Shown here piece after piece: positions 42,001 through 61,630 of a stretch of 64,000 nucleotides of DNA; the first letter of the stretch is position 1, and every line of letters begins with the position of its first letter. The notes under the pieces were generated by a model. That model searched no databases. It was not told the DNA's origin and worked only from the letters and a program-made list of their open reading frames with translations. A program made the translations under genes and the position numbers. Origin of the DNA: Zoroaster sp. YZ-2022 (Eukaryota > Echinodermata > Asteroidea > Forcipulatida > Zoroasteridae); contig CM055819.1 in the NCBI GenBank assembly GCA_029582265.1, positions 9,484,135 through 9,548,134 of the forward strand, given 5' to 3'.

Positions 42001-45000
42001 TCAAACAAGCCGATATGGTTGACTACTATTCAAATAAGCAGATTTGGTTGACAACTATTCAGATAAGCAGATTTGGTTGACTACTATTCAGATAAGCAGA
42101 TTTGGTTGACTACTATTCAGATAAGCAGATTTGGTTGACTACTATTCAGATAAGCAGATTTGGTTGACTACTATTCAAACAAGCCGATTTGGTTGACTAT
42201 GTATTCAAACAAGCAGATTTGGTTGACTACTATTCAAATAAGCAGATTTGGTTGACTACTATTCAGATAAGCAGATTTGGTTGACAGCTATTCATATAAG
42301 CAGATTTGGTTGACTGCTATTCAGATAAGCAGATTTGGTTGACTACGTATTCAAACAAGTAGATTCGGTTGACTATGATTCCCCTCTCTGTCCACTTTGT
42401 TGTTGAACTTTTTAGGCATCTCCCATTTTATTTGCTTTACAAACAATAACCGCCAACCGAGGACCCATTGTTCCCTTTTGTTATAATTTATCGGTTTACA
42501 CCAAAAACAAACCCACACCTCTTAATACTCCCTGTCCACCATTGTTGACCAACTCTTCATGATATGTTTGTTCCACATAACCAGGCACAGATGCTACTCA
42601 TGCTGACCATATTGAGACTATTAAGTCTCGTTTGTATGTTGGTGTACGGCCAGATGGCAGGTTTGTTCCTGGTGAACTAGGCATGGGTCTAGTAGAAGGA
42701 TATGACAACATGGGATATGCACTATCTAAGCCAGACTTAAGAGCTGAACTAGAGGCAGATCTTAAAAGGTACTGATGGTCTGTCTATAAAGTACTTAGTA
42801 TTCTCATGTGCATGCATGTTCTTGTGTTCTTAAATATATGATTAAAACAGTATGTGTTTTGTGTTTATTTGTGTTGCACCAAAAAAATAAATAAATTTGG
42901 ATATCTTGACAGGAGGGCATTTATGGTAATAAAAGCTCAATGATTGGGATGTGACCACAAGCGATAAAAGAATGTCTGATCAGTATTTTATCACCTGTGG
43001 CCACGACCCCAAAGGTACAAAGATCAAGTATCCGGCAAATTATTCCATCTGGAGTGCTTTTAAATTGTCAAATTTACAAAGAATTTCGATCTGGCAACTT
43101 TATGTAAAACTTATAAAACTAGTTTTTTTATTAAAAGGTTTTTGTTGTTTTCCCAAAAACAAGAGAATCTATTATGAAACTTTCACAGGTTAGTTTTATG
43201 ATATATATCTTTAAAATGAGTGGGCAAAGTGAAAGTATGTTTCCAATATACAAATATACACTCTCTGAACATTCACCATAGACTATACTGACTTCATGAA
43301 AATCCTGTACAAGGAGATTAAGACCATTCATAATGGTCCAGACAGTTTAGACATTCTAATTGATTTAGACATTCTGATTGGTTGAGAACTGGTCGTGTGG
43401 GTGTTTAAGATCAGTCTTGACTAGTAGATGTTGTTTAAGACTGATCTTGACACGCTAGCTTACCCATCTTGCTAGACAGGCAATTTTTAGCCAATCAGAG
43501 TTTAAGTAAAACTTGTAGCTTTTCATGGTGAGTAGGATAAGTAAATACTAATTGCAGTGAAACCATGTGCTCTCCCATTGGCCAGTCTGCAAGGGGTGTG
43601 GACCATGTGCACTCCCATTGGCCAGTCTGCAAGGGGTGTGGACCATGTGCACTCCCATTGGCCAGTCTGCAAGGGGTGTGGACCATGTGCACTCCCATTG
43701 GCCAGTCTGCAAGGGGTGTGGACCATGTGCACTCCCATTGGCCAGTCTGCAAGGGGTGTGGACCATGTGCACTCCCTTTATTGATTACCTTGCATATAAT
43801 TTTACCATATATATTTTGGTGTGATCCTTTTTTCCTTGAGACCCTCGATCCATCTCTGAAAAGCAGTTGTGTCCTCAAATACATGAAAACACCTAAGTTT
43901 TGAAACTATTACTAGGGCAATTATGAATGGGAATAAAAACTTCAGGCTTGGTCTTTACCATATGATAAAGACCTCTATGTTGTTGCCATTGATCTTTATC
44001 CTGTGGTAAATTTCCTGGAGTCAAACTTTAGTTCTTGTATTGAAAAGTGATTACAACAGACAATAGAGCCCTGTGGTCAAGAGATTATAGGATTAGATCA
44101 ATTGGATGACAGTTTTTTTAGGCTATTATGATCAGGGGATTAATCATTACCAGGAAGTCTCTTTGGGATTAACTGGGAGATAAGTGGTCTATTTGTTTAA
44201 CCACTAGATAATGAGCTTATTATAGACCATGTGACTTGTTTACACTTTGCTTGACTTTTAGAGTAAAGGAGTGATTTCCTGCCCGGCAAAAGTGTGTTTA
44301 TTTTTATGCAGACATTTTGTACTTCTTCTCATAACATCAAAAATTGTTTGAATTTTCAGATGAATACGATTTCAGATGTAATGTTAGTGCGTTATTATAA
44401 ATGAATATTCTGCTTAAAGCTTGAAATATCAAATTTTATGGTTTCTTGTTATAGACCAGTGTACATTTTGTGGGGTTCTTTCGTAAACATGTGATGTCAC
44501 TGGTCACATTGTCTATAGAGGAGGGAATTGTAACCCAAGAGAACCGGTGGAAAACAGTGAGATATTTAAAGGTTGTGGGAAGATGGCCTTCCTTATAGGG
44601 GGATATGAGTGTGATTTTTATGAGTTGATTGTAATTGGATTATTTCTTCATCTCTAGGATATGTGATGGAGTGAAGGACCCAGATGAGGTTCTTAGAGAA
44701 CAGATAGAGAAATACAGACAAGTCTTTATAGAAGCAGCCGCAAATGTAAGAACTGTTTGTATAGTATATTACCACAGACATCATTTCATTAGTGATCACT
44801 CTACACATTTACATTATTTCCCCAACACATGAGTGTTCTATTTTAAAGATAACTCAAAAGGCTCCTTTTTAAAGCCCACAAAATTAATAATTTTTGCAGA
44901 AGGAAATATTGTCCCTACTACCCCCCACTCCACCCTGACCCACCCAAACCAGATCACAATTGACCAATCATGACCTTATCATATGGAAACACCTAAAGCG

Positions 45001-48000: not shown

Positions 48001-51000
48001 AGGAGGGTTAATGTATTTTCAATATTTTCTTGTAAATGCCACAACGTTATGTGCTGAAACTTTCACAAGATAGTTGTTTTATATCTTCATTCACAGCAGA
48101 ATGGAAGTTTACCGATGTTATATTTTCCCTTTAAGAACCTCAGCTGAGCAGCAAAAATGCCAACAACTAATTGGCAGCCTTGTACAATTTCTCACTGTTT
48201 AGCTCAGTTGGCTGGGAAAAATCGATAAATTGATGATATTGCGTTGAGTTAAGCGTTATTGCAGAAGATGTGCATCATTACACAAGAGATCATGTGTATG
48301 TGAATGTAGAGTGCACAGTAAATGTTCAGGCAACCTCACATGTAGCCCAAAGATCTGACATCACGCTTAGAGGCTCGCGAAAGATGCCAGATACCGGCCT
48401 CTCAGTTTTGGGGAGATTCAACTTTGACCTTGGTTGGTACATGTAGCTAGCCCATACAACATCCAATGAAATTCCTTGAATGGTACAGCCAAGGCCTGTC
48501 TTTATTCTTGATAGAATAAAGACAGAGGACCAGTCTACCTCACTTGATGCAAAAGTGCCCTACCATCAAGGCATTGGGTACTTTTTCACCACTAGATGTT
48601 GTATTTTTCTCCTAGGTATATTGGATGTATAGGTGGTTGTGATGCAATGCTAAGGGAAGCTCTAGATCTGAATATGACATATCTTAAGACTCCATCTCAA
48701 ACACAAGGTTAGTTCAGATTCCTTTAATGCCGGCTCATAATTCACGTTTCAAACATTATTCCACTGCGAATGATTCACACAAGTTGAAGTTTCTGCAAAT
48801 TGTTTGCACAATTCTCAATTTTTTGACATCACAATTTGCCTTTTGTTCCAGTAAAGTATTAACTGTCCTTTAGTTGGACCATCTTTATATACATTACTTC
48901 AATATAAAGTGTAAAGCCTTGTACCACTTTCAATCTTTCTTTTTGATTAATCTGTATGATATTCCTACCACCAGTACCAACAACAAATGCAAGAAATGAT
49001 AGAGGAAGGGGCAGAGCTCGAGGAGGAGGTGGCAGAGGAGGTGGCAGAGGAGGTGGCGGAGGAGGTGGCGGTGGTAGTGGAAGAGGTGGAACAGGAGGCA
49101 GTGGAGGAGGTGGTGGTGGTGGTGGAAGAGGAGGCAGTGGAGGAGGTGGTGGTGGTGGTGGAAGAGGAGGCAGTGGAGGAGGTGGTGGTGGTGGTGGTGG
49201 TAGAGGATGGGGAGGAGGGGGTGATGGCAGCGGAGGAGGGGAAGGGGCATTTGGGGCGCCATCAGGTGGAGGTATAGGTGGATTTGGAGGACCAAACCAA
49301 GGCAGGAGCAGAGCTTTCTCTTCTAACCATTCACAGCCCAGGCAACCCTTGAATCAAGTTCCCATTGGGTAAGAAACTCGGGGTTTCCAATAAGAGAGAA
49401 AATGTTACAGTGTAACAGTCCTGGAATTTCAATCTTGTACAGACAAAGACACTTTTCCTTAGTAAAGGCCACTATGACTGGAATATCAGAATGTCTATGG
49501 GGAAAATGTTAGGGGATACCAAGACCTGGACAATAGAGGCCATGGCCTTTATAAAATTCCAGGCCTGATGTAAGATGACTTCATTGCAGAGTTAATGTTA
49601 AAGGCCAGTACAATGAGTATGTTGAAAACAAGATCAGGTAATAAAATTTTGTTGTACGGTCTTTACTGCAGGATAAAGACTGAGGGTCGTGGCCACGGAT
49701 GATAAAGGACTGAGCCAAAGGCGAGCTCCTTTGTTCCCATTCATATGTGCACATCTTGATTTCTTGATCCAGTGCCATTTGTATTGAAAAAGAGCTAGAA
49801 AGAATCTGACAAATCCAACGTTTCAGACTGGATGATATTCCAACGTGGCCCTTGTGTCCGCATTAAGCGAATACAAAAATCTACACTCTGATTGGTTCAT
49901 TCCCACATGGCACATACTTGCATACATTTTGTCCAATCAGGTTGTCTTAACTGTCTTGTGCATAGTTTATGAATTCCTTTTATTTCATATCTTATTGCTT
50001 AGTGGGACGTCATATTTTACTGGTACCAATGGTAGTAGTAATAATGCTGTGGTGTGTAACTGTGGAAGTGATGCTTCACGTCTAACAGTCAAGAAAGAAG
50101 GAGCAAATAATGGTATGTCATCATATAGGTATCAAATATTGTAAAGAGACATTGCCTGTGTTATTGTGGGTTGGCTACAGTGATTTGGTCATTATTCTAA
50201 CACTCCATACTGTAATGTGTAAGAACTTGAATAATAAAGATATGTTCATATTGTGTCATAGGTGTGCTTAAGTTTTTGTTCTGTTAACCCTTTCATTACC
50301 ATTGGCGACTTTAGTCGACAACACACATACCCCTTGTTGCTTACCATTCAGTTGACCAAGGTCACCTCACACACAGCACTTAATTGGGAGTATCATGACC
50401 AGCTTTTAAAACAGCTGTATTTTTTCTCCTTCTTCGCAGTCCATACCGATGCTATATATGGTTCGAAAGACTGATTCCTTATCTTTCCAATGGTTTAGCC
50501 CAACCTACATAATAATAGTAATAATAATGTGGACTTATATAGCGCACGTATCCACCAAACTGGTGCTCAATGCACATTACATTATTACCCCTGCTCATCA
50601 GGCGCATAAATCATTCCTGAAACCATCTCAGCTCCCTGGGGAGTATACAGCTCAATTGCTGACATTGCAGCGCATATGGGCTAATCAAACACAACAACCA
50701 ACTCTGATTATAGAAATCAGACATAATACAAGTCAATCCTTTCAATAGCCATTTGTGCTATGGAACGCCATACACTTGTGTACAAAAATAGTAACATTTT
50801 ATATGCAATTCTATTGATTTTGGTAGCATATGAAAGGGAATTCCATGAGCAACAATAATTTCATTGAATATATTTTTCTCCAACAAAGTCTTCATGATGA
50901 AAAATGAGTTAAAAAACAGTGCCTGTAAATGGATGCATACTGTTGTGCAATAATGTGTGAATTCATGCACGACTGGGCAGGGAATTCTGTAACCAGTGGG

Positions 51001-54000
51001 ACATCCCGTTCATACAAATCGGTAATGAAAGGGTTAAGCCCAAAAAATATAAATTGTATTTTGGACAGTACCGTAAAGATCAGACCAGACTTTCAACAGG
51101 GCATGGAATCAGCAGCAACGGTAATATGACCTTATCATGTGGGGTATTATTTTCAGTCACTGAGTTAATCTAAAACTAGCACTCCGATTCCATGCCCTGT
51201 TAATAGATTAGGTGTTAAAACACTGTACTTTGTATTTTGTTTTGCCAAAATATATTTTCAATTGGGAAAATGTGATTTTTGTTGTGGTTTTTTGGCACCC
51301 TGAAAATAGCATCAGCTGCTTTAGTTAATACATCAAAACCTTATTGTTATCCTTGCCTCTGATGTTTCTCAGGAAGCCATTCATATAACACATTAAAATC
51401 AAGGATATCAAATGTTTTTAAAGATAATCCATCAGCATTTCATGTACATTGTAGATATTAGGTAATGTTGGTGGCCAAGTAATTGGTATACCGGCTTACC
51501 AGTCTTATATTACATTTCCATTCAAAAATCTCTTTAAAATATTTTTATCAGAAAGGTAACATTTTGGCTGTGATTGTTTGCCAAAAACTTTCATTCTGAT
51601 TTATACATTGAATGATTTGCAGCATGAATTCCATCATGTTTTGTGATTGAGACTGAGAGTCCATCAGACACCCATCGAATCAAGAATAAGATTCATTTCA
51701 GTGCAGAATTGGAAAAACAGATTTTGACCAAAATAAATCATTTTCACAAGCATAATATTTACGTAATATGTTTTCGTAATATCTAGAGACAATTTGGCTT
51801 CCATATCGTTTCAAGTTGTTATTACTTTAATTTCATCTCTACACGCTTGCAATGTTCTTTGATCACTATTTTTGATGTTATCATTGCAACTCTCGCTAAG
51901 TGAGGTAACAGGTCCTGAAAAGAATCTTATCGCACAACTTGTATCTCAACTGTCGCTAAGTGAGATTATGATTCAGGGGAGAACCAATATCAGGCAACTC
52001 GTTTCTCAGCTATCACAAAGTGAGAATGTGGTTCAGGGAGAACCATGAGGACTTCTCTACATTTTGATTAGCCTGCTCTAATCTTCATCAGGAGAATGAA
52101 GAGGTTTGGAGATGCAGCTCCTTAAGTAGTATTTGCTAGGATTATGTGTAGAATGGAAAGTGTTCTGATTGGTGCCTAGTGGAATGTGTTGGATAATACC
52201 ACTGTTGTGCGATGGGTTATGATTGTGTGTGTGTGTGTGGGTTTCCTGCTGTAAGTGAATCGCCTGCTCGCTGAGGCACATTAGTAGACTGTGGGGTGTG
52301 AGTGTTACTGGATGGTAGGATTGAAATAGCGATAGTTGAGAAACGAATTGCCCGATATTGGTTCTCCCCTGAACCATAATCTCACTTAGCGACAGTCGAG
52401 ATACGAGTTGTGTGATAAGGTTCTTTTCAGAACCTGTTACTTTACTTAGCGATAGTTGAGGTAAACACATATGTGCTACCGCAAACCAAAACGATATCAA
52501 TACTCCACCATGCAAAGCCTTAAATCTTAAGTCATCATTGCAAGTGTATACCTAAGATTCTATAGTTTGGGTTTAGTATAGTGCCCTCAGTTGGTTTTCA
52601 TAATACACATTGAATAGAACACATATATGTGTGGCACTGGAAGTTGAGTGAAGGAAAGATTCTTATTCATGTCTTCATTTCCATTGTTTTCTTTTTCAGG
52701 GCGACAATTCTACAAGTGCAGTACAGGGAACTGTGATTTCTTCCTGTGGGCCGATGAAAACTCAGCACCCTCAAATCCTTCAACTAATTCAAATAATTCT
52801 AGTTGGAATACTGGTGGGAGTTCTGGTTGTAACCACAATGCCAGTGGAAACTCATGGAATAACAATAATACTAACAGCAGCTATAGGAGTAACAGTGGCT
52901 TTGATTCTGGTAATGATTCATCTGATGTGAAGACTAATGTATGGGGAGAAGTCACGTGCCAATGTGGTCAGGCAGCTGTCTTGTAAGTTACACAGTTAGC
53001 TTTATCTGTTACAGAACAAGCTGTCATATTCTGATATTTAATAAATAAATATAAGCTGTTGCACCCTGCTTTAATACCACCCAAGAGGACCTGTGGTATA
53101 AATGCAGAACTGACGGTTAGTAATAATAATAATAATAATGTATAGATTTATATAGCGCACGTATCCACCAACTAAGTGGCGCTAGTGACTTGTTTTGACC
53201 TTAATTCCATGGTATTTCTTAAACAGGCAAAGAGACTGCCTTTGATGCAGATGCTGTTGTTATTATTTTATTTGTTTTTCTTGTTGTTTAGCACAAGCCA
53301 TTTTTGGCTCCTTCACAAAAACGGCATCATCGTGTTTCTTGTTTTTTGGACAGAAATACATTCTTACATATCTTACTAGAATTAGAAAGGGCCGATTAAT
53401 TGATTTGAAACTTTTAAGTCAGAAATCCCATATCAAAGGGACAATATTACTGGCAACAGCAATGGTAATATGACCTTATCATGTGGGGTATTATTTCCAG
53501 TCACTGAGTTAATCTAAAACTAGCACTCTGATTCCATGCCCTGTTGATTGTGACGATATTGTCTCATTTGTTTTCTTCAGACGGACTGTACAGAAAGAAG
53601 GATCTAATAAAGGCAGAGAGTTCTATGTATGTAACAAACCACAAGGCAAACAATGTAAATTTTTTGAATGGACGGATAGTGATAACAAAGGTGGTGCTAG
53701 GACAGGAGGTGAGTTTAATAACCAATCCAGGGGTGAGTTTAATAACCAATCCAGGGGTGAGTTTAATAACCAATCCAGGGGTGAGTTTAATAACCAATCC
53801 AGGGGTGAGTTTAATAACCAATCCAGGGGAGAGTTTAATAACCAATCCAGGGGTGAGTTTAATAACCAATCCAGGGGAGAGTTTAATAACCAATCCAGGG
53901 GAGAGTTTAATAACCAATCCAGGGGTGAGTTTAATAACCAATCCAGGGGTGAGTTTAATAACCAATCCAGGGGTGAGTTTAATAACCAATCCAGGGGTGG

Positions 54001-56758
54001 GTTTAATAACCAATCCAGGGGTGAGTTTAATAACCAATCCAGGGGTGAGTTTAATAACCAATCCAGGGGTGAGTTTAATAACCAATCCAGGGGTGAGTTT
54101 AATAACCAATCCAGGGGAGAGTTTAATAACCAATCCAGGGGAGAGTTTAATAACCAATCCAGGGGTGAGTTTAATAACCAATCCAGGGGTGAGTTTAATA
54201 ACCAATCCAGGGGTGAGTTTAATAACCAATCCAGGGGTGAGTTTAATAACCAATCCAGGGGAGAGTTTAATAACCAATCCAGGGGTGAGTTTAATAACCA
54301 ATCCAGGGGTGAGTTTAAAGTGCAGTGATTGAAGTGTATCATGCCTTGACATTCCCAGGGGAAAAAGTAATACCTTTGGAGGCAGAACAAATGTCCTACT
54401 GAATGGACATTTTGTGTTGGTGATAGGGTAGGGCTGAAGGTGTCGTTAACATACAATGGTTTCCTGATTGGGCTCTATTGGTATCCTTATTGCGAGAATA
54501 GGGTTTCATTCAGGATACAAGTATCTCCCAATCTCCCCCCCCCCCCACCAACCCCCTCAACACAGTTGCTGAAAGTCCACAATTGCAAATACTTTTAGCC
54601 AAAGGACATCGTTTAACAGTGGAAAACCTGTCACATCAAAATACAATTTACAGTCCTGTGATTTCTCAGGATAAGTAAAACTTGCAGCTTTGCATGGTGA
54701 ACAGGATAAGTAAAGACTATTTGCGGTGACACCAATTGAGAATTTCACATGGTGTCACCGCAAATAGTCTTTACTGATTTCTCAGGAGATTTCCTGATTT
54801 CAGGATTTGTTTACTTTTGTCAAGTCACACCCCTGAATTCACTTTCTAAACAAATAGTCAGATTTTTGATCATATACACTTTCTGAAACTTATTGAAATT
54901 TATGTAATATATGAAATTTACCAAAATTTAAATGTTTTAATTTGAGTTTGAGAAACATTCCAAACTGTTTGATGGATGTAACCATAAAAATAATTTGTCT
55001 TCATGATAGGTGGAAGCAGAGGAGGTAATCAAGGAGGGTTTGATAAGAAAGGTGGAGCTAGCTCAGGTTTTGGAAGAGGCAGAGACGATAACAGGAAGAG
55101 AAAGAAACCAACTTGTAGTATCTGCAACCAGGAGGGTAAGCAACGCAATTGTCATCAATTAACAGTTTCCAAACTTATCAGACTTTTATTTTTGTGTTCT
55201 TGTTTTTTTGTACAACTGAGGACTTGTGTTGTGCTCATGTGTACATATCATATTGGAAATTCTCCTCAAAGTTAAAGCCAACTTCAATAAGACAATAAAC
55301 CGTTTAACCCTACTTCACATGGAGGCCACTCAGATCCACTAACTTTCCAATATGTTCTTCACCAAGCTTTAAAGCATACAAGCCACTGCTGTCTTTTCCA
55401 ACTAATCTTACAAAATCAACCCAGTGCCACCCAAGGCCACTGTAAATAAGATCATCTCAATTACATACTCAACACACACTGAAGGCCTTTACAAACCACA
55501 TTCTGTAGTGGTTTTGTATAGGTGTGTTTACAGTCAAAATACATGGTCAGGGCCCAATTTCATGGCACTGCTTACTGCGGAATTCTGCGCTTACGGCGCA
55601 TAGAATCACACGCTTTTTATGGCGCCGTAAGCGCAGAATTCTGTGGTAAGCAGCGCCATGGAATTGGGCCCAGGTTACAGCTGGTTGTTTGAACATATTA
55701 GTATGGCCTGCAGTGTATCAATGGGAGACCACTTTACCCTGCAATCTCAGTGGTGTGACAGTGCACAGAACGGTAACCATATGAGGGTTAAAACAAAATT
55801 TGGTTTCCCGAAATACACCTAACTACCACAGAAATATCCAAAGCTAAAAAGAAACATAATTGGTAACATAGAATTCAAAGCAGTGACAGAACAATGTAGT
55901 GACCATGTCTATAGAATGTATCAGTTTGAGTTGCAAAATCCAGCAAACGTGAGTAAGTAATTTAAGAGATTGACAATTGCTGATCACTCTATGTACATCG
56001 TATCCCTCTGGTGGTAAAATTGCCGCTATTGTCTTGATGATAACTGATTTAGCGTCAAGTGAGCGTTGTCCGTAAACCAATAAACACTTTAAATATTCAA
56101 TGCGTACGCACAACAACTGCAAAATATCCTTAACGCAATGCACTATCATTGCCCAATCGATCAATAGTGATCTAATTATTGGTGTCCTTAACAGGTGCAA
56201 ATGGCAACACCACACTTTGTGAATATAGTTTCTCATACAGGTTGGATTAAATCAAATAAGCTTGAAAATCTGCCATTTATCATGTTGAAAAACACTAGAA
56301 AGTAGGGCTGTGCCGAATAAACCAAATTTTCAAATGTTCAATGGATGGTTCAATATCCAGTTTTGTTTTTTTTCCGGTCGAATATTCAAAGAAAAAAAAT
56401 GCTGCTTCTGCAGAAAATAAAGTTTTTGTTTAATTTTTGTTTTCTTATTGGAGTTTCTATCCACTGTTGAACTGTTTCAAGGTAATTTTGTACAGCACAA
56501 GGTGCTGCGACAATGAACCCGTAAAATGAAGTAACTGACTTCAGAACCTTTTTCTGATACAAAATGTCCAGTGTTTTGAACAGATTGTTTGTTGTTGCTT
56601 TTTACATGATTTTTTATTTTTTTACAAGGACCAATTATACGATATCACCGAGGCATGAGCGGCATTATGTTATGTACGTTTTATCACAAGGCGTAATAAT
56701 TACCAATCGGTGATCTTCGAATATCGAATATTCTATCAAAATAAAAATCCAAATATCC

Positions 56759-59700: not shown

Positions 59701-61075
59701 AGACACTACTGTTTCAAACCCAAATTATTGTTTTATTTTTAATTGTTTATTTTTTGTTCAGTTTGAGGTGGGGTGGGCTTGGGAGACAGTTAGGACAGGC
59801 TAGCGTTCAGGGTCAGTCATTGAAATTTAGAATCGTTCTTCAAAATTTACACCACTGGTGGCTGTCCCATAATTCTCCCCCAAAAGGAAAATTAACCCAA
59901 ACTGGCAGGGCTCATGATTCTTTTGGGGATTACCAATAATGCAATAATCAATCCAATGCATTTTAACAGACTTGTTTAATATTATGCCATATTTTTGCAT
60001 TTTTGCATTTTTGCATTTTTGCATTTTCAACCGTTGACCAAGATAAGAATACTTTATAATTCTCATAATTCATAAAAATATGCATTAAATTGCATCACAG
60101 AGCATCAAGAACACTAAAGCTTCCTGGACCCTTGGGCAGGCCCTGGACCCTTTGCTCTGTCCTGATTCTATTCCCCAATGGATTTTAGCCAAATGTTTTG
60201 CCCACGTATGCTCATGTAACACTGTCAATTCAATAATTATTTTGGAGACTAATTGTGTGGTTAAGATCAAGAAATCATTTTCCAAAATGAACTCAATAAA
60301 ATTTTATTTTAAATTTTCAGTTTCAATTAAATTTATCGGTACTGGCCTGTAATTTTTTTAAACAATAATAAATTGCTGTAACACTGGCTGTGTACATTTT
60401 GATTCAGCATGGAAAACGTCATGGAAACCAATAGCATTGATAGCATTGTCAGCCAACCCTAGTTACAATACCCAAACCAGCCTGAGTGGTATCCCATCTG
60501 AGTATTGACAACATTTACAGTGTTGATATTACACACAGATCTCCCTATAACACCAGACTTGTGTCCATTTATCAAATAGGATGCCCTTGGATGAATTGTG
60601 GGCTATTAAAACAATACAGCTCTTCCATTACATGTAGTTCTCCTCCCTCACCCAAGACACAGTTCCGTTTTTTTTTAAATTCCAAATATTTCATTCCCCG
60701 ATTTCAGTACCCTAACAATTCTAAAGTTCTTAACTGGGCAGTAACATATTTGTAATTACAGGGACACTATTATCACAATCAACAGGGCATGGAATCGGAG
60801 TGCTAATTTTAGATTAACTCAGTGACTACCATAATACTCCACATGATTAAGGTCATATTACCATTGCTGCTGCGTAAATGAGCCAGTAATTTTTCAATCA
60901 CTGTGTTCCTCCTTAAACTAAGACACCAATTCCTTGCCCTGTTGAAAGTCTGCTCTGATCGTGACAATATTGTCCCTTTAAAAGTACACGTACCTTGTAC
61001 TTCTCCAAAATTACAACTTAAAATTGTTTCTCTTATATTTCAGGTCACACAAAGCGCAGTTGTCCAATGAAGTGA
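11899..61075 (+). CDS. TOP3A: DNA topoisomerase III alpha, 25 coding exons
   Basis: Type IA topoisomerase that passes single strands and, with BLM/RMI partners, dissolves double Holliday junctions; animal TOP3A also acts in mitochondria. Exons total 1089 codons from the ATG at 12058. Phases agree through all 24 introns. Domains (numbering from that Met): TOPRIM with Glu12 and the D119-x-D121-x-E123 triad ([10 protein letters not shown]); catalytic Tyr333 in [10 protein letters not shown]; core motifs HPPIHP and [12 protein letters not shown]; Cys4 zinc ribbon (C628, C631, C649, C655); second Cys cluster (C675, C678, C706, C710); Gly/RGG-rich exon (733-863); GRF fingers 882-917 and 987-1025; basic RKRKKP; CCHC knuckle (C1073, C1076, H1081, C1086). 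An in-frame ATG at 11899 adds 53 residues that look like a mitochondrial presequence. The last three exons lie around a minisatellite that supplies alternative donors. Confidence 0.96.
12058..12150 (+). CDS. TOP3A: TOP3A exon 1 (residues 1-31)
   Basis: Encodes [17 protein letters not shown], the first TOPRIM strand and helix with Glu12. Donor AGG|GTAAGT, phase 0. Confidence 0.95.
12179..12207. repeat. ACT trinucleotide microsatellite
   Basis: About nine ACT units just after the exon 1 donor region in intron 1. Confidence 0.8.
12340..12576 (-). repeat. tRNA-derived SINE (uninterrupted target form)
   Basis: In - orientation. A B-box-like GGGTTCGAGTC lies in the head on the right. The body shares GTGTCTTGCTTAAGGACACA and the ACACACGGGACCTACGGC block with the SINE at 56763-57041. 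Confidence 0.65.
12868..12977. mobile_element. Partial TTAA-type MITE, inverse of the 3380-3608 left end
   Basis: About 110 bp matching the first part of the 3380-3608 element in reverse, ending CCTAGGGGGTTAGGG followed by TTAA (12978-12981). The other terminus is missing. It abuts the non-LTR element that follows. Confidence 0.6.
12985..15175 (+). pseudogene. 5'-truncated, frameshifted non-LTR retrotransposon
   Basis: The order is preserved. First comes the C-terminal half of an apurinic-type endonuclease (12986-13384: [20 protein letters not shown], then SDHLP). RT follows, with KAPGFDGLN near 13910, [19 protein letters not shown] near 14107-14163 and FADDT near 14203. A C-terminal region has [16 protein letters not shown] and a later [11 protein letters not shown] motif. 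At least three frameshifts or stops separate these pieces, so it is dead. The motifs suit the Jockey/CR1 group; the clade is not resolved. It lies in TOP3A intron 1, sense strand. Confidence 0.85.
15176..15848. other. Intron 1 filler, nothing recognised
   Basis: Contains a short direct duplication of ATTGAAATAAATGTATTATCAATC (first ~20 bases compared; 15286-15331) and otherwise unassigned AT-rich sequence. Confidence 0.35.
15849..16794. mobile_element. TIR element, about 60-bp inverted ends
   Basis: Left end ATGGTAAACACA and right end TGTGTTTACCAT are complementary. The match continues through GAATTCTACCATAAA and CAGACCATGCAAG, apart from a 17-bp insertion in the left arm. The interior has no recognised protein. 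Confidence 0.65.
16795..17143. other. Intron 1 filler with a poly-C run
   Basis: A run of ten or more C lies at about 16970-16980; nothing else was recognised. Confidence 0.35.
17152..17554. mobile_element. hAT-like MITE, copy in TOP3A intron 1
   Basis: Ends TAGGGCTGTGC and GCACGCCCCTA with a perfect 8-bp duplication ATTTTGAT (17144-17151 and 17555-17562). Inverse orientation to the H3.3 intron copy, with long shared interior stretches such as the GAGATTGCACTCCAATAAAG block. Confidence 0.85.
17563..19356. other. GC-richer intron segment, possible LTR-like remnant
   Basis: Less AT-rich than its surroundings. A TATA-like CCTATATAAACCC at about 18158-18170 is followed by GC-balanced sequence, so a solo LTR or old promoter is conceivable. 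No terminal TG...CA pair with target duplication could be defined. Short frames here have no recognised domain. Confidence 0.25.
19357..19640. repeat. Spacerless 284-bp perfect palindrome
   Basis: Arms 19357-19498 and 19499-19640 are exact reverse complements by direct reading, with the centre at CCA|TGG. The centre is a Penelope-type terminus (GGTTTGCGGTAACACCATG), and the arms run outward about 110 bp into sequence not seen in the other copies. Confidence 0.92.
19641..20120 (-). mobile_element. Penelope-like element terminal region
   Basis: Shares blocks with 51890-52500: GGTACAGGTTCTGAAAAGAA, repeated GGTTCAGGGAGAACCATG units (19790-19850) and a hammerhead-like motif, followed by GCAGCTCCTTAAGTAGTATT. 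No protein is encoded on this strand. Confidence 0.65.
19862..19902 (-). ncRNA. Hammerhead-like motif, mutated CUGANGA box
   Basis: On the - strand: CTC, then CTTACGA in place of CTGANGA, a GATTAG/CTAATC hairpin with an AGCAGG loop, GAAA, TGTT and GAG. The first box has lost its consensus G, so cleavage activity is doubtful. Confidence 0.5.
20128..20355 (+). pseudogene. Penelope-like RT fragment
   Basis: The open frame holds [20 protein letters not shown], the RT motif A region of Penelope-like elements (compare [16 protein letters not shown] at 24183-24130 on -). It breaks off after about 45 recognisable residues. It is opposite in strand to the neighbouring terminal region, so the locus is rearranged. 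Confidence 0.75.
20356..21340. other. Intron 1 filler with a DR1 motif
   Basis: No gene. GGGTCAAAGGTCA at 20709-20721 is a direct repeat of two nuclear-receptor half-sites with one spacer base. Confidence 0.35.
21345..21545. repeat. Imperfect GAGTTGTCACAAGGGT tandem repeat
   Basis: About ten variable units of 14-17 bp built on GAGTTGTCACAAGGGTC or GAGTTTTTTGTGGGTC. Confidence 0.7.
21571..21776. repeat. Inverted repeat with about 55-bp arms
   Basis: ACACAAACCACT...AACTTGTTGAATCTTCCCCC (21571-21626) is complementary to 21721-21776 with some mismatches and a short insertion; likely a foldback element. Confidence 0.65.
21786..22580. mobile_element. GCCCTTTTCACACGA TIR element, copy 1
   Basis: Left end GCCCTTTTCACACGA, right end TCGTGTGAAAGGGC, next to TA dinucleotides. 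Another copy lies at 38344-38875. It holds an open frame (21820-22323, +) without recognisable domains, probably coincidental, and a DR1 motif at 21923-21935. Confidence 0.7.
22625..24185 (-). pseudogene. Penelope-like retroelement: RT, linker, GIY-YIG, hammerhead
   Basis: The best preserved Penelope copy. The - strand frame 24183-23653 is RT with [32 protein letters not shown] and the catalytic WLRYVDDTF. Downstream lies a GIY-YIG endonuclease region whose [15 protein letters not shown] motif is at about 23299-23255 and is then broken by a one-base deletion; the remaining text continues in the next frame. A frameshift also separates RT from the linker. The 3' part has a hammerhead-like motif and ends at TTGCGGTGACACCATG (22637). 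It is cut off on the right at about 24185. Markedly more GC-rich than its surroundings, which suggests a fairly young insertion in TOP3A intron 1, antisense. Confidence 0.9.
22692..22731 (-). ncRNA. Hammerhead-like ribozyme motif
   Basis: On -: CTC, CTGAGGA, a C, the hairpin GATCAG-AGCATA-CTGATC, GAAA, CGTC, GAG. The CUGANGA and GAAA boxes and a GUC cleavage-type triplet are all present, and CTC/GAG can form stem I. Stem III would be a single C-G pair, so a dimer may be needed. Penelope-like elements are known to carry hammerhead motifs in their terminal regions. Confidence 0.65.
24186..24640. other. Intron 1 filler, nothing recognised
   Basis: AT-rich sequence with a G10 run near 24550; no gene. 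Confidence 0.35.
24641..24696. mobile_element. TTAA-type MITE end fragment
   Basis: The GGAGGATTTTGAAGGATT block and terminal CCTAGGGGTTAGGG followed by TTAA match the end of the 12868-12977 fragment. Confidence 0.5.
24705..24868 (-). repeat. tRNA-derived SINE fragment (62112-type)
   Basis: CCCCATTTATACTCCTGGG and ACCCACATTCTGACGACTC are shared with 62112-62428; the B-box side is GGGTTTGAATCC on -. Confidence 0.65.
25199..25332 (+). CDS. TOP3A: TOP3A exon 2 (residues 32-76)
   Basis: [17 protein letters not shown] then [18 protein letters not shown]. Acceptor TTTCAG, donor TG|GTAAAT splitting Trp76. Confidence 0.95.
25437..26377. mobile_element. PIF/Harbinger-type element with Myb-like ORF
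   Basis: Inverted ends GGCCCGTATTCATAAAG and CTTTATGAATACGGGCC with a 3-bp TTA duplication (25434-25436 and 26378-26380), typical of PIF/Harbinger. It encodes only the Myb/SANT-like partner (25580-26125, -); the DDE transposase is absent. Confidence 0.85.
25580..26125 (-). CDS. Harbinger Myb/SANT-like DNA-binding protein
   Basis: An open frame of up to 181 codons; [20 protein letters not shown] is a natural start at the eleventh codon. Residues read like a trihelix/Myb-like domain: [15 protein letters not shown], then [19 protein letters not shown], then [19 protein letters not shown] with spaced Trp residues. In Harbinger elements this protein binds the termini and brings in the transposase. 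A Ser/Leu-rich C-terminal part follows. The frame is uninterrupted although the element lacks its transposase, which argues for recent insertion or use of the protein by other copies. It lies in TOP3A intron 2, antisense. Confidence 0.75.
   Translation of the reverse strand: MCMHRPYIDMAAKRERGENWDYMENIFLLELCQEKVKIIEDTRIDADSTKRKEKAWEEIVNKFSARYGQRRDKKRLKEQWGRIKLKAKQDYSKYEKERKKTGGGPEPKKPTGISEQIHDILPGDFGFSLSLKILSRRSAPPCCLWISRRAIIASMTAREQLRNGTCIPLSEKLKYPQGSSS
26584..26659 (+). CDS. TOP3A: TOP3A exon 3 (residues 76-101)
   Basis: [20 protein letters not shown], phase 0 at the donor AAG|GTACTG. Confidence 0.93.
26666..26811. mobile_element. 146-bp MITE directly after exon 3 donor
   Basis: Ends GGGCCGATTTCACAAAG and CTTTGTGAAATCGAGCC with a 3-bp CTG duplication (26663-26665 and 26812-26814). 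The left duplicate is part of the exon 3 donor context GTACTG. Confidence 0.75.
27152..27260 (+). CDS. TOP3A: TOP3A exon 4 (residues 102-138)
   Basis: Carries the acidic TOPRIM triad in [16 protein letters not shown]. Donor GCAG|GTATGT, phase 1. Confidence 0.96.
27407..27604 (-). other. Open frame of unknown origin in intron 4
   Basis: The 65-codon - frame ([20 protein letters not shown]) could be a decayed retroelement tail, but nothing firm supports this. Confidence 0.2.
27627..27813. mobile_element. 187-bp mariner-like MITE
   Basis: Ends CTGAACAGCAAAAGAAACG and CGTTTCTTTTGCTTTTCAG between TA dinucleotides (TA TSD), as in Tc1/mariner derivatives. Confidence 0.8.
27820..28793. mobile_element. 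TIR element (AGGCTTGGGCGGTTTT ends) with nested MITE
   Basis: Left AGGCTTGGGCGGTTTT and right AAAACCGCCCAAGCCT are complementary apart from one inserted A. No clear target duplication. A smaller element with CAGGCATGCAAC and GTTGCATGCCTG ends is nested at 27859-28003. Confidence 0.65.
27859..28003. mobile_element. 145-bp MITE (CAGGCATGCAAC ends), nested
   Basis: Twelve-base perfect terminal inverted repeats; hAT-like start CAGG, target duplication not clear. Confidence 0.6.
28904..29205. mobile_element. TTAA-flanked MITE, CCCTAACCCTGCC termini
   Basis: Begins CCCTAACCCTGCCAGACGCA and ends GAGGGTTAGGG between TTAA at 28900-28903 and 29206-29209. Inside the right end, TGCGTCTGGCAGGG inverts the left end, so the TIR is about 20 bp interrupted by a 30-bp insert. 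Confidence 0.75.
29212..29760 (+). pseudogene. Penelope-like element fragment, GIY-YIG domain intact
   Basis: The frame 29339-29749 has [19 protein letters not shown], then [23 protein letters not shown] and a tail, which is the GIY-YIG nuclease end of a Penelope-like polyprotein. Its RT part is missing; the fragment starts right after the TTAA MITE. It lies in intron 4, sense strand. Confidence 0.85.
29960..30317 (+). repeat. tRNA-derived SINE, full length
   Basis: Head TGTCGTGGCCGAGCGGTC (A box) and GGTTCGAATCA (B box, 30021-30031), about 75 bases like a Ser/Leu tRNA. The body has the CACTTGTGTCCTTGAGCAAG block, and the 3' end is GCGCTATATAAATCCACACA followed by (ATT)n. Five other copies of this family are in - orientation in the window. 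Confidence 0.9.
30318..31100. other. Intron 4 filler, nothing recognised
   Basis: AT-rich noncoding sequence. Confidence 0.35.
31101..31571 (+). other. Unassigned 156-codon open frame in intron 4
   Basis: Balanced, partly acidic composition ([30 protein letters not shown]), unlike the AT-rich filler. After residue 107 the text becomes intron-like, and a GTACCG donor-like site sits there. It may be an exon-like piece of a transposon protein; no family is recognised. Confidence 0.3.
32094..32145 (+). CDS. TOP3A: TOP3A exon 5 (residues 138-155)
   Basis: [17 protein letters not shown]; acceptor T8CAG, donor CA|GTAAGT. Confidence 0.95.
32506..32597 (+). CDS. TOP3A: TOP3A exon 6 (residues 155-186)
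   Basis: [20 protein letters not shown], domain II entry. Donor ATAG|GTAGGT, phase 1. Confidence 0.95.
33115..33230. repeat. Foldback MITE-like palindrome in intron 6
   Basis: TGCAAAATAGTAGTTATTGG on the left pairs with its inverse ending at 33229. The centre is AAAGGCCTTTGAG. A few mismatches only. Confidence 0.75.
33726..33896 (+). CDS. TOP3A: TOP3A exon 7 (residues 186-243)
   Basis: [12 protein letters not shown] and [20 protein letters not shown], topo IA core. Donor AAAG|GTGAGT, phase 1. Confidence 0.96.
33985..34095 (-). repeat. Penelope terminal fragment with partial hammerhead
   Basis: TGCGGTGACGCCATGTAG, the GAAAAGAACCAG block and CAACGTTTCGATCAGTATGC match 22625-22735; the CUGANGA half is lost. 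Confidence 0.6.
34639..34814 (+). CDS. TOP3A: TOP3A exon 8 (residues 243-301)
   Basis: [20 protein letters not shown] and [19 protein letters not shown]. Donor GTG|GTGAGT, phase 0. Confidence 0.96.
34995..35345 (+). repeat. Second tRNA-derived SINE family, two head-like units
   Basis: Two B-box-like motifs, GGTTTGAATCC (35061-35071) and GGTTCAAATCC (35241-35251), each followed by a CAGTGCTTCATACAT or GGCTTCATACATT tail. This looks like a dimeric or duplicated SINE. Confidence 0.55.
35416..35498 (+). CDS. TOP3A: TOP3A exon 9 (residues 302-329)
   Basis: [20 protein letters not shown] then AEKLYTKG. Donor AAAGG|GTATGG, phase 2. Confidence 0.95.
35845..36075. repeat. Degenerate GACTTGGACTCAG-like low complexity
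   Basis: Repeated GACTTG/GACTC words in intron 9; no gene. Confidence 0.45.
36161..36258 (+). CDS. TOP3A: TOP3A exon 10 with catalytic Tyr333
   Basis: Residues 329-362. [10 protein letters not shown] holds the nucleophile Tyr333 (TAT 36171-36173) that forms the 5'-phosphotyrosyl intermediate. Donor GGAC|GTAAGT, phase 1. Confidence 0.97.
36964..37130 (+). CDS. TOP3A: TOP3A exon 11 (residues 362-417)
   Basis: [20 protein letters not shown], then [16 protein letters not shown] text. Donor AAG|GTAAAT, phase 0. Confidence 0.96.
38344..38875. mobile_element. GCCCTTTTCACACGA TIR element, copy 2, nested
   Basis: Inverted ends GCCCTTTTCACACGA and TGTGTGAAAAGGGC. Copy A of the host (5755-5763) shows the empty site CTTAGAATTATCC (on -). 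A DR1-like GTGTCAAAGGTCA lies at 38489-38501. Confidence 0.75.
40393..40744 (-). repeat. tRNA-derived SINE, nested in copy B
   Basis: Full length in - orientation, bounded by an 11-bp duplication ATAGCGTATCG on each side, as expected for LINE-mediated insertion. Confidence 0.88.
40880..41019. repeat. 28-bp minisatellite, five units, intron 11
   Basis: Unit CACACTCTATACAACCCTGT plus GTGTACTG; five identical copies. Confidence 0.95.
41205..41381 (+). CDS. TOP3A: TOP3A exon 12 (residues 418-476)
   Basis: [18 protein letters not shown] and FQPRSIQ; 177 nt, phase 0 at both ends. Confidence 0.96.
41706..41784 (+). CDS. TOP3A: TOP3A exon 13 (residues 477-503)
   Basis: [20 protein letters not shown] then MDKHGIG. 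Donor ATTG|GTAAGA, phase 1. Confidence 0.96.
41801..42380. repeat. 29-bp minisatellite, about 20 units, intron 13
   Basis: Unit near AGCAGATTTGGTTGACTACT plus ATTCAAATA, with CAGATA and CAAACA variants arranged in runs, so local duplication is evident. Confidence 0.92.
42585..42768 (+). CDS. TOP3A: TOP3A exon 14 (residues 503-564)
   Basis: [20 protein letters not shown] and [20 protein letters not shown], core domain. Donor AAAAG|GTACTG, phase 2. Confidence 0.96.
42769..43560. other. Intron 14 left part, nothing recognised
   Basis: AT-rich noncoding sequence. At 43520-43565 a Penelope-terminus-like GGATAAGTAAATACTAATTG precedes the minisatellite. Confidence 0.35.
43561..43776. repeat. 40-bp minisatellite, five units plus partial, intron 14
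   Basis: Unit GACCATGTGCACTCCCATTG plus GCCAGTCTGCAAGGGGTGTG. Nearly identical copies. Open frames across it on both strands are artefacts of the repeat. Confidence 0.95.
43777..44657. other. Intron 14 right part, nothing recognised
   Basis: Noncoding up to the exon 15 acceptor. Confidence 0.35.
44658..44745 (+). CDS. TOP3A: TOP3A exon 15 (residues 564-593)
   Basis: [20 protein letters not shown] then VFIEAAAN; acceptor CTCTAG, phase 0 at the donor. Confidence 0.95.
45210..45276 (+). CDS. TOP3A: TOP3A exon 16 (residues 594-616)
   Basis: [20 protein letters not shown]; donor GACG|GTAAGA, phase 1. Confidence 0.93.
45874..46196. mobile_element. TTAA-flanked MITE, CCCTCCTATGG family, copy 1 (intron 16)
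   Basis: Between TTAA at 45870-45873 and 46197-46200; ends CCCTCCTAT and ATAGGAGGG. Built of CCTTTCAAAA words. A direct-orientation twin is at 47694-48007. Confidence 0.85.
46455..46650. repeat. Penelope terminal fragments, head to head
   Basis: 46463-46570 resembles 22625-22720 on -, with GTAA in place of GAAA. 46605-46645 carries the opposite half, CCTGAAGACGATCAGAGCAT, on +. The hammerhead is disrupted on both sides. Confidence 0.55.
46809..46993 (+). CDS. TOP3A: TOP3A exon 17: Cys4 zinc ribbon
   Basis: Residues 616-677. C628-x2-C631 and C649-x5-C655 form the topo IA type zinc ribbon, followed by AAVWFP. Donor ACT|GTAAGA, phase 0. Confidence 0.96.
47465..47538 (+). CDS. TOP3A: TOP3A exon 18 (residues 678-702)
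   Basis: [21 protein letters not shown]678 pairs with C675 of exon 17. Donor CAGA|GTATGT, phase 2. Confidence 0.94.
47694..48007. mobile_element. TTAA-flanked MITE, CCCTCCTATGG family, copy 2 (intron 18)
   Basis: Between TTAA at 47690-47693 and 48008-48011. Nearly identical to copy 1, which has one extra TGAAAGGTTTT unit. Confidence 0.87.
48008..48615. other. Intron 18 right part, nothing recognised
   Basis: Noncoding up to the CCTAG acceptor. Confidence 0.35.
48616..48707 (+). CDS. TOP3A: TOP3A exon 19 (residues 702-733)
   Basis: [19 protein letters not shown] with C706 and C710. Donor CAAG|GTTAGT, phase 1. Confidence 0.94.
48975..49368 (+). CDS. TOP3A: TOP3A exon 20: Gly/RGG-rich linker
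   Basis: Residues 733-864. Starts [20 protein letters not shown] and continues with three near-repeats of a GRGGSGGGG type before a Gly/Ser/Gln tail ([18 protein letters not shown]). The codons are GGA/GGT runs, so slippage probably expanded it. Frame and phases agree with both neighbours. RGG motifs are better known from TOP3B, where they bind RNA. The antisense Leu/His-rich frame here is a shadow. Confidence 0.88.
50003..50112 (+). CDS. TOP3A: TOP3A exon 21: GRF finger 1, first half
   Basis: Residues 864-901; [18 protein letters not shown] with C882 and C884. Donor AATG|GTATGT, phase 1. Confidence 0.94.
50509..50707 (-). repeat. tRNA-derived SINE, head missing
   Basis: (ATT)n-type tail and TATATAGCGCACGTATCCAC at the left. 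The copy stops after GCGCATATGGGCTAATCAAA, so the tRNA-like end is lost. Confidence 0.75.
51060..51202. mobile_element. GGACAATAT-family MITE, internally deleted
   Basis: GACTTTCAACAGGGCATGGA at the left and CCATGCCCTGTTAATAG at the right; shows the uninterrupted ATGTGGGGTATTATTT. Confidence 0.6.
51203..51889. other. Intron 21 filler, nothing recognised
   Basis: AT-rich noncoding sequence. Confidence 0.35.
51890..52500 (-). mobile_element. Penelope terminal regions as an inverted pair
   Basis: 51895-52020 and 52325-52470 are inverted copies of a block with GTCGCTAAGTGAGATTATG and GGGAGAACCAATATC. Between them lie a hammerhead-like motif and the GCAGCTCCTTAAGTAGTATT segment. It ends ACCGCAAACCAAAACGATAT. 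No intact protein. Confidence 0.7.
52054..52093 (-). ncRNA. Hammerhead-like motif, intact CUGAUGA box, altered GAAA
   Basis: On -: CTC, CTGATGA, GATTAG/CTAATC hairpin, AAAA in place of GAAA, TGTA, GAG. Loss of G12 and of the cleavage-site triplet makes it probably inactive. Confidence 0.5.
52700..52982 (+). CDS. TOP3A: TOP3A exon 22: end of GRF 1, start of GRF 2
   Basis: Residues 901-995. [20 protein letters not shown] completes finger 1 (C907, C912). A Ser/Asn-rich linker follows, then [11 protein letters not shown] opens finger 2 (C987, C989). Donor TT|GTAAGT, phase 2. Confidence 0.95.
53121..53183 (-). repeat. tRNA-derived SINE, 3' tip only
   Basis: (TAA)n, then TATATAGCGCACGTATCCAC and ACTAAGTGGCGCT. 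Confidence 0.7.
53438..53563. mobile_element. GGACAATAT-family MITE abutting exon 23 acceptor
   Basis: GGGACAATATTACTGG to GATTGTGACGATATTGTCTC. Its right end lies about 17 bases before exon 23, so it forms most of the branch-point region. Confidence 0.65.
53581..53708 (+). CDS. TOP3A: TOP3A exon 23: GRF finger 2 (to first donor)
   Basis: Residues 995-1038. [17 protein letters not shown] and [10 protein letters not shown] complete finger 2 (C1012, C1020). The first donor is GGAG|GTGAGT at 53709, phase 1, compatible with exon 24. The frame also stays open through the adjoining minisatellite to TGA at 54326-54328. Confidence 0.92.
53708..54316 (+). repeat. 24-bp in-frame minisatellite at exon 23/intron 23 border
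   Basis: Twenty-five full units of 24 bp plus a partial one. In the TOP3A frame each unit reads GEFNNQSR. Eighteen full units and the terminal partial carry GTGAGT, one has GTGGGT, and six (units 6, 8, 9, 18, 19, 24) read GGAGAG, which removes the donor but is synonymous for Gly. After the last unit the frame ends FKVQ-stop. Frames on the other strand and in other phases across this block are artefacts. Confidence 0.95.
54708..54776. repeat. Penelope-terminus hairpin, intron 23
   Basis: AGTAAAGACTATTTGCGGTG and ACACCA are followed after a short loop by the exact inverse. Confidence 0.8.
55010..55135 (+). CDS. TOP3A: TOP3A exon 24: basic Gly-rich stretch and zinc knuckle start
   Basis: Residues 1038-1080. 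[19 protein letters not shown], then the basic RKRKKP (possible NLS) and CSICNQE. Donor GAGG|GTAAGC, phase 1. Confidence 0.94.
55551..55670. mobile_element. 120-bp foldback MITE, CAG duplication, intron 24
   Basis: Near-palindromic: GGCCCAATTTCATGGC ... GCCATGGAATTGGGCC, with CGCTTACGGCGC inside. CAG duplicates at 55548-55550 and 55671-55673. Confidence 0.85.
56303..57076. mobile_element. hAT-like MITE with nested SINE, intron 24
   Basis: Ends TAGGGCTGTGC and GCACAGCCCTA; flanks CTAGAAAG (56295-56302) and CTTGAAAG (57077-57084) match at 7 of 8. Same terminal signature as 1065-1398 and 17152-17554. A SINE occupies 56763-57041. Confidence 0.8.
56763..57041 (-). repeat. tRNA-derived SINE nested in the hAT-like MITE
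   Basis: Long (TAA)n at the left and a tRNA-like head at the right; TCCAGTTAA is duplicated on both sides. The middle matches the 12340-12576 type, so this copy is a mosaic of two subfamilies. Confidence 0.85.
57536..57847. repeat. 28-bp minisatellite, 11 units, intron 24
   Basis: Unit AGAGCCCAGATTCCACATCT plus CGGAGCTT, with a block of GATTGCAC variants in the middle. Confidence 0.93.
57848..59990. other. Intron 24 filler, nothing recognised
   Basis: AT-rich noncoding sequence; short frames lack recognisable domains. Confidence 0.35.
59992..60026. repeat. Short TTTTTGCA tandem
   Basis: Four units of an 8-bp repeat. Confidence 0.8.
60761..60977. mobile_element. GGACAATAT-family MITE, intron 24
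   Basis: GGGACACTATTATCAC at the left and GTGACAATATTGTCCC at the right, about 65 bp before the last exon. Confidence 0.7.
61044..61075 (+). CDS. TOP3A: TOP3A exon 25: end of CCHC knuckle and stop
   Basis: [10 protein letters not shown] and TGA (61073-61075). With exon 24 it completes C-x2-C-x4-H-x4-C (C1073, C1076, H1081, C1086), the same C-terminal knuckle as other animal TOP3A. Confidence 0.94.
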
Positions 61076-61280: not shown

Positions 61281-61630
61281 TAATAATAATAATAATGTGT
61301 GGACTTATATAGCGCACGTATCCACCAACTGAGTGGTGCTCAAGGCACATTATATTATTACCCCTGCTCATAAGGCTCATAAATCATTCCTGAAACCATC
61401 TCAGCTCCCTGGGGAGTATACAGCTCAATTGCTGCCATTACAGCGCATATAGGGCTAATCAACCAACTCTGCCCTCACAGGTACCCATTTAACCCCTGGG
61501 TGGAAAGAAGCAATTATGGTTAAGTGTCTTGCTCAAGGACACAAGTGTCACGGCCGGGATTCGAACCCACATTCTGCTGCTAACACCAGAACTTGAGTCC
61601 GGTAAGCTAGACTGCTCGACCACGACACTC
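61281..61630 (-). repeat. tRNA-derived SINE, full length, downstream of TOP3A
   Basis: Same family and orientation as 40393-40744; head ends GACCACGACACTC. Confidence 0.88.

Follow-up and report, generated by a model that had tools for sequence, protein, structure and literature searches.

The DNA analysed here is a stretch of 64,000 nucleotides (referred to below as the window) from the sea star Zoroaster sp. YZ-2022 (GenBank assembly GCA_029582265.1, contig CM055819.1, positions 9,484,135 to 9,548,134 of the forward strand). Nearly the whole of the gene for TOP3A, the eukaryotic topoisomerase III alpha, lies within it. The subject of this report is a minisatellite of 24-bp units that begins exactly at the splice donor of exon 23 of that gene and carries copies of that donor. 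Positions are those of the window, and features lie on the forward strand unless stated otherwise.

The gene model was built from open frames, splice signals and phase. It comprises exons 2–25 (25199 to 61075) and encodes 1058 aa; an additional first coding exon, at 12088, was left unjoined to the model. Exon-by-exon comparison with Pfam revealed the topoisomerase core, a Top1 zinc ribbon and parts of two GRF fingers, and a terminal zinc knuckle was recognised by motif. The model matches 4cgy, a solved chain of human TOP3A, at 1098.5 bits. The best 120 of 4871 significant proteins are headed by two sea-star TOP3A sequences, first that of Patiria miniata (89% identity, 67% of the query covered) and then that of Acanthaster planci (87%, likewise 67%). 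On this sequence evidence (type IA core, Top1 zinc ribbon, two GRF fingers and terminal zinc knuckle) the gene is identified as TOP3A. Exon 20 (48975–49368) contains a glycine-rich coding repeat, GGGGRGGSG, in the linker that joins the Top1 zinc ribbon to GRF finger 1. That linker is 157 aa long in this species, 184 in Patiria and 110 in Acanthaster, and it is apparent from these differences that this linker tolerates changes in length.

Exon 23 (53581..53708, 128 nt) encodes the greater part of GRF finger 2 and the beginning of the linker that follows it (Pfam Zn_ribbon_GRF, 4.6e-13, profile positions 10–44 of 45). It is entered in phase 2 and, at the first donor, left in phase 1. That donor, GAG/GTGAGT, occupies 53709..53714 and is the expected main splice donor. 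Exon 24 (55010..55135, 126 bp, entered and left in phase 1) encodes the rest of the linker and the N-terminal half of the zinc knuckle (CSIC), while the coding part of exon 25 (61044..61075) supplies the end of the knuckle and the TGA stop. As exon 24 has phase 1 at both ends, its skipping would preserve the frame, with loss of the CSIC half of the knuckle. Introns 22 and 23, on either side of exon 23, measure 598 and 1301 nt, the latter counted from the first donor, and all 23 introns lying between the modelled exons 2–25 exceed 250 nt.

The final base of exon 23, in GAG/GTGAGT, is also the first base of the array, which consists of 25 full 24-bp units, GGTGAGTTTAATAACCAATCCAGG (53708..54307), followed by a partial unit of 11 bases (54308..54318); the remainder of intron 23 extends over 54319..55009. 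A preliminary description of this DNA had reported 25 copies beginning at the exon 23 donor, each reading as the eight codons GEFNNQSR in the TOP3A frame, and both statements agree with the present units and gene model. Eighteen of the 25 full units match the consensus and the other seven carry one change each: T to A at unit position 3 in six units, and A to G at position 5 in one. Matches to the unit (allowing up to three mismatches, on both strands) number 25 in the window, all within the array, as against none in 100 shuffles. The open frame continues past the partial unit to a TGA at 54326–54328, and the translated end of a form retaining this sequence, ...GEFKVQ, is the FKVQ terminus that had been proposed. 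No stable RNA fold over the array was found (z-score 0.13; 10 of 20 shuffles were equally good).

The variant units occur in an irregular order, with repeated blocks up to six units long. This arrangement bears on whether the copy number can be taken at face value, the alternative being an assembly error or a private expansion, with far fewer true copies or with an array confined to the animal sequenced. Minisatellites of such size tend toward instability. The amphioxus globin haplotypes differ in having six and three units (PMC3087553). Nevertheless, seven internal variants in irregular order, within an array of approximately 0.6 kb that long reads would span, make an artefact or a private expansion highly improbable.

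Twenty live donors are present: 19 of the sequence GTGAGT, including the first donor and that in the partial unit (54309), and one GTGGGT (53997). Six units have GAGAGT instead (53829, 53877, 53901, 54117, 54141 and 54261). When spliced to exons 24 and 25, all 20 live donors stay in frame to the stop, as the preliminary description had anticipated from their shared phase. Its range of 0 to 25 added octapeptides must be narrowed, although the in-frame potential stands. Only 20 values can arise, namely 0–4, 6, 9–16, 19–22, 24 and 25, the six others being impossible because their donors are dead. The six GAGAGT units had also been emphasised as changes of GGT to GGA that are synonymous and yet destroy the donor. 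The count is correct, but as an argument it is weak, since a homogenised array spreads changes by duplication, and repeated blocks are seen here; the six may represent a single independent event. Only two sites in the array are variable, one with a single nonsynonymous change and the other with six copies of the same synonymous change. A reading in terms of codon selection was dropped, two variable sites being too few for a test.

To compare the donors, a matrix was built from the 22 other donors of TOP3A (a small matrix), and energies of pairing with the U1 5′ end were computed. The first donor scored 8.80 bits and −10.8 kcal/mol, the repeat donors 8.24 bits and −10.4 kcal/mol, GTGGGT 5.45 bits and −9.6 kcal/mol, and GAGAGT 3.06 bits and −7.2 kcal/mol. 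Thus the first donor is the strongest in the array by both measures, as had been suggested from its fit to the consensus, but its margin over the repeat donors is slight. The repeat donors themselves are not weak. By the matrix they lie near the middle of the donors of the gene, 12 of 23 scoring above them and 8 of 23 above the first donor.

It might be supposed that an array open in the TOP3A frame is itself coding, i.e. that splicing proceeds from the last donor (54309) and that exon 23 is really 728 nt long, with 25 octapeptides, in the manner of the glycine-rich coding minisatellite of exon 20. The frame is indeed open throughout. The G/N/S/R/Q composition resembles, by eye, that of the neighbouring linkers, and the unit has a G+C content of 0.417, near the exon value of 0.422 (exon 20 excluded) and higher than the 0.374 of the gene span. 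The varying length of the repeat-bearing exon 20 linker among three sea stars also fits such a reading. An open frame is, of course, less informative than it appears. All donors share one phase because the period is divisible by three, whatever that phase may be, and 9881 of 20000 shuffled units in which the donor was kept contained no stop, approximately one in two. The array is stop-free in four of its six frames, and read-through of 24 nt is open at 9 of the 23 TOP3A boundaries, that of exon 23 included. The in-frame property therefore provides no evidence of coding use, as it follows from the period together with an open frame. With 25 units, moreover, the linker would reach 247 aa, against a maximum of 70 in homologues (see below), and both shorter exons and the upstream of equal donors tend to be preferred (PMC9225289). 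A coding array of this kind is very unlikely, and nothing found here supports its coding use on a large scale.

The linker comparison was made between GRF finger 2 and the zinc knuckle in the 114 of the 120 listed homologues that have both motifs, six being dropped. The linker ranges from 30 to 70 aa, with a median of 48. In this species it measures 47 aa if no unit is included; each unit adds eight residues, which gives calculated lengths of 55 aa for one unit, 71 for three and 247 for 25. Three database searches listed 155 proteins in all (120 of 4871, all 24 and all 26). None of these contains the peptide NNQSRG, and none is known to come from this species. Two of the searches, with 24 and 26 hits, were additional ones in which no match was named as a sea star, most hits being unnamed. 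The peptide does resemble RNQSTWG at about the matching place in Patiria, and homology of the unit with the linkers of other sea stars was considered on that account (the NQS of Patiria ‘ARNQSTWGG’, suggestive by eye). It is unproven, since permuted units often match the score of the real one (Patiria, 312 of 3000; Acanthaster, 799 of 3000; sum of both, 372 of 3000).

Taken together, these results are best accommodated by a donor-anchored minisatellite that is probably spliced for the most part at 53708, with a minor in-frame form, eight residues longer, likely as well. Four considerations favour the first donor as the main one. First, the long flanking introns place exon 23 in the range of exon definition, where the upstream of two equal donors is favoured: in exon-defined human minigenes with two equal strong donors the upstream donor was used exclusively, and among natural human events of near-equal donor strength it was favoured in 60%, shorter exons being favoured as well (PMC9225289). 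Second, in a human array of the same layout, the intron 18 variable number tandem repeat (VNTR) of ABCA7 (25-bp unit, 23.7 units in the reference, the first GT being the exon 18 donor), use of a later donor is described only for the next one, which keeps one unit and accounts for 2 ± 1% of transcripts (PMC5954066). Third, the ‘mirages’ of lancelets are reported as leaving regular splicing undisturbed, although the authors add that cryptic sites within them could be used (PMC3087553, PMC3902484). Fourth, the 47-aa linker with no unit falls within the range of the 114 homologues.

Several observations weigh against this interpretation. The U1 pairing of the repeat donors is better than that of 19 of the 22 other TOP3A donors, and use of later donors is therefore not implausible. 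The linkers of Patiria and Acanthaster, at 56 and 58 aa, are closer to the one-unit length than to that with none; adding one unit raises the Patiria alignment from 284 to 299, yet for Acanthaster the score falls from 275 to 272. The 2% in ABCA7 is a floor, because the product is frame-shifted and subject to nonsense-mediated decay, and alternative forms combined can outnumber the canonical form in brain (PMC5954066). When human 5′ splice-site competition events are taken unfiltered, the downstream site is favoured in approximately 60%, in every intron class (PMC9225289). Finally, in a survey of human tandem repeats at exon–intron boundaries, a repeat-retaining transcript exists as well for 66% of the intron modifications (PMC2812944).

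This last figure also speaks for a splice-site lottery, in which many of the 20 donors are used and TOP3A is produced as graded isoforms with 0 to 25 octapeptides, as do the presence of 20 live in-frame donors and the ordinary strength of those in the repeat. Such a lottery is nonetheless unlikely, given that the ABCA7 VNTR is reported with one retained unit only, that from three units onwards the linker lies outside the homologue range, and that NNQSRG is missing from the listed proteins. The related proposal that 20 similar in-frame donors, with six more silenced synonymously, yield a measurable octapeptide ladder, its extent depending on how many copies an allele carries, is distinctly unlikely. 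The preliminary description had put forward TOP3A with extra octapeptides as its principal inference. The potential for it exists, but published parallels mostly favour the first donor, and inclusion of at least three units takes the linker beyond the lengths seen in homologues. Its stated alternative, a neutral repeat born at the boundary, is judged the better main interpretation, with minor in-frame inclusion as a by-product.

A sequence of events leading to splicing mainly at the first donor can be proposed. A 24-bp stretch starting at the boundary would have been duplicated and then expanded by slippage or unequal exchange, the donor being copied in the process. The upstream donor at 53709 would be defined across the 128-nt exon and would give rise to most of the mRNA, whereas U1 bound at the second donor may generate a minor form in which the linker from GRF finger 2 to the zinc knuckle is extended in frame by a single octapeptide. 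Inclusion of more units would be rare and, because the frame is kept, tolerated, and the array may persist without selection for it. The source of the unit was sought in exon 22, the end of exon 23, exon 24 and the intron following the array, but no significant likeness was found in these four places (the score was reached by 335, 272, 90 and 202 of 500 shuffles, respectively). The exonic part of the unit is one base by exact match, with a near-match from 53703. The unit begins with the intron start, and some of the remainder may once have been exonic.

Minisatellites are commonplace in this gene, as four others of at least five copies are situated in TOP3A introns, at 40880, 41808, 43562 and 57537, with periods of 28, 29, 40 and 28 bp. 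Only the exon 23 array sits at a donor. That at 41808–42375 (29 bp, 19.5 copies) is a second array starting close behind one, 23 nt past the donor of exon 13. Intron 23 also contains a hairpin at 54706–54778, with 34-nt arms that are 91% complementary and a 5-nt loop, which resembles a small inverted-repeat element. Elsewhere in the window, ARAGORN identified three tRNA-Leu(CAA) sequences (29962–30043, 40660–40741 and 61545–61626), none at the Rfam gathering score, which are perhaps copies of a tRNA-derived short interspersed nuclear element. A reverse transcriptase fragment lies on the reverse strand at 23656–24189 (Pfam RVT_1, 3.2e-10). An open frame at 29219–29746, on the forward strand, matches no Pfam family, although by eye it resembles a GIY-YIG tail such as that of Penelope-type elements. 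A Myb/SANT-like open frame (Myb_DNA-bind_5, 8.8e-13) lies within TOP3A intron 2, on the opposite strand (25583–26125).

The exon 23 array offers a clean natural test of donor choice, with 20 near-identical live donors that are spaced by multiples of 24 nt and keep the same reading frame. Every choice is translatable and should escape nonsense-mediated decay, unlike the frame shift in ABCA7. Should only the forms with no unit and with one unit be present in complementary DNA, this would support a rule of exon proximity in an echinoderm; a ladder, on the other hand, would constitute a rare length-graded protein series. In one open-licence library, no paper was found that combines minisatellite, sea star and splicing, nor was a donor-anchored minisatellite in TOP3A found among the papers listed there. 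Papers on earthworm metallothionein and chicken MUC2 were rejected as parallels, as they are not about donor arrays.

The array is of the ‘mirage’ type and has the architecture of the human ABCA7 VNTR, a kind already known from amphioxus and man, from which alone donor-anchored minisatellites were otherwise found to be reported; it extends them to a sea star. One characteristic feature of mirages is present, as the array abuts the exon–intron boundary from the last exonic base and has copied the donor. Like the sea-star array, amphioxus mirages are boundary minisatellites with copied splice signals in an invertebrate deuterostome, but those described span the boundary, whereas here the unit has a single exonic base by exact match and the host is a sea star (PMC3087553, PMC3902484). 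In the segmental duplications of man, internal tandem repeats likewise consist of minisatellite units at boundaries that are kept or spliced out; they differ in belonging to recently duplicated primate genes and in having a mean of four units of 30 bp. For units shorter than 40 bp in coding sequence, Table 2 of that report gives three in-frame and no out-of-frame intron modifications (PMC2812944). Intron gain by tandem duplication is comparable in that duplication copies splice signals, but no new intron is implied here, the donor of an existing intron having been copied (PMC4974935). The closest parallel in layout is provided by ABCA7, in which the first GT of the array also serves as the canonical donor of the exon (canonical here by the gene model) and the next donor is usable, with retention of one unit. 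The 25-bp unit retained there shifts the frame, whereas the 24-bp unit of the sea star stays within it. In ABCA7, length polymorphism and skipping of exon 19 have been measured, the latter at 12–45% according to tissue and increasing with the length of the array (PMC5954066).

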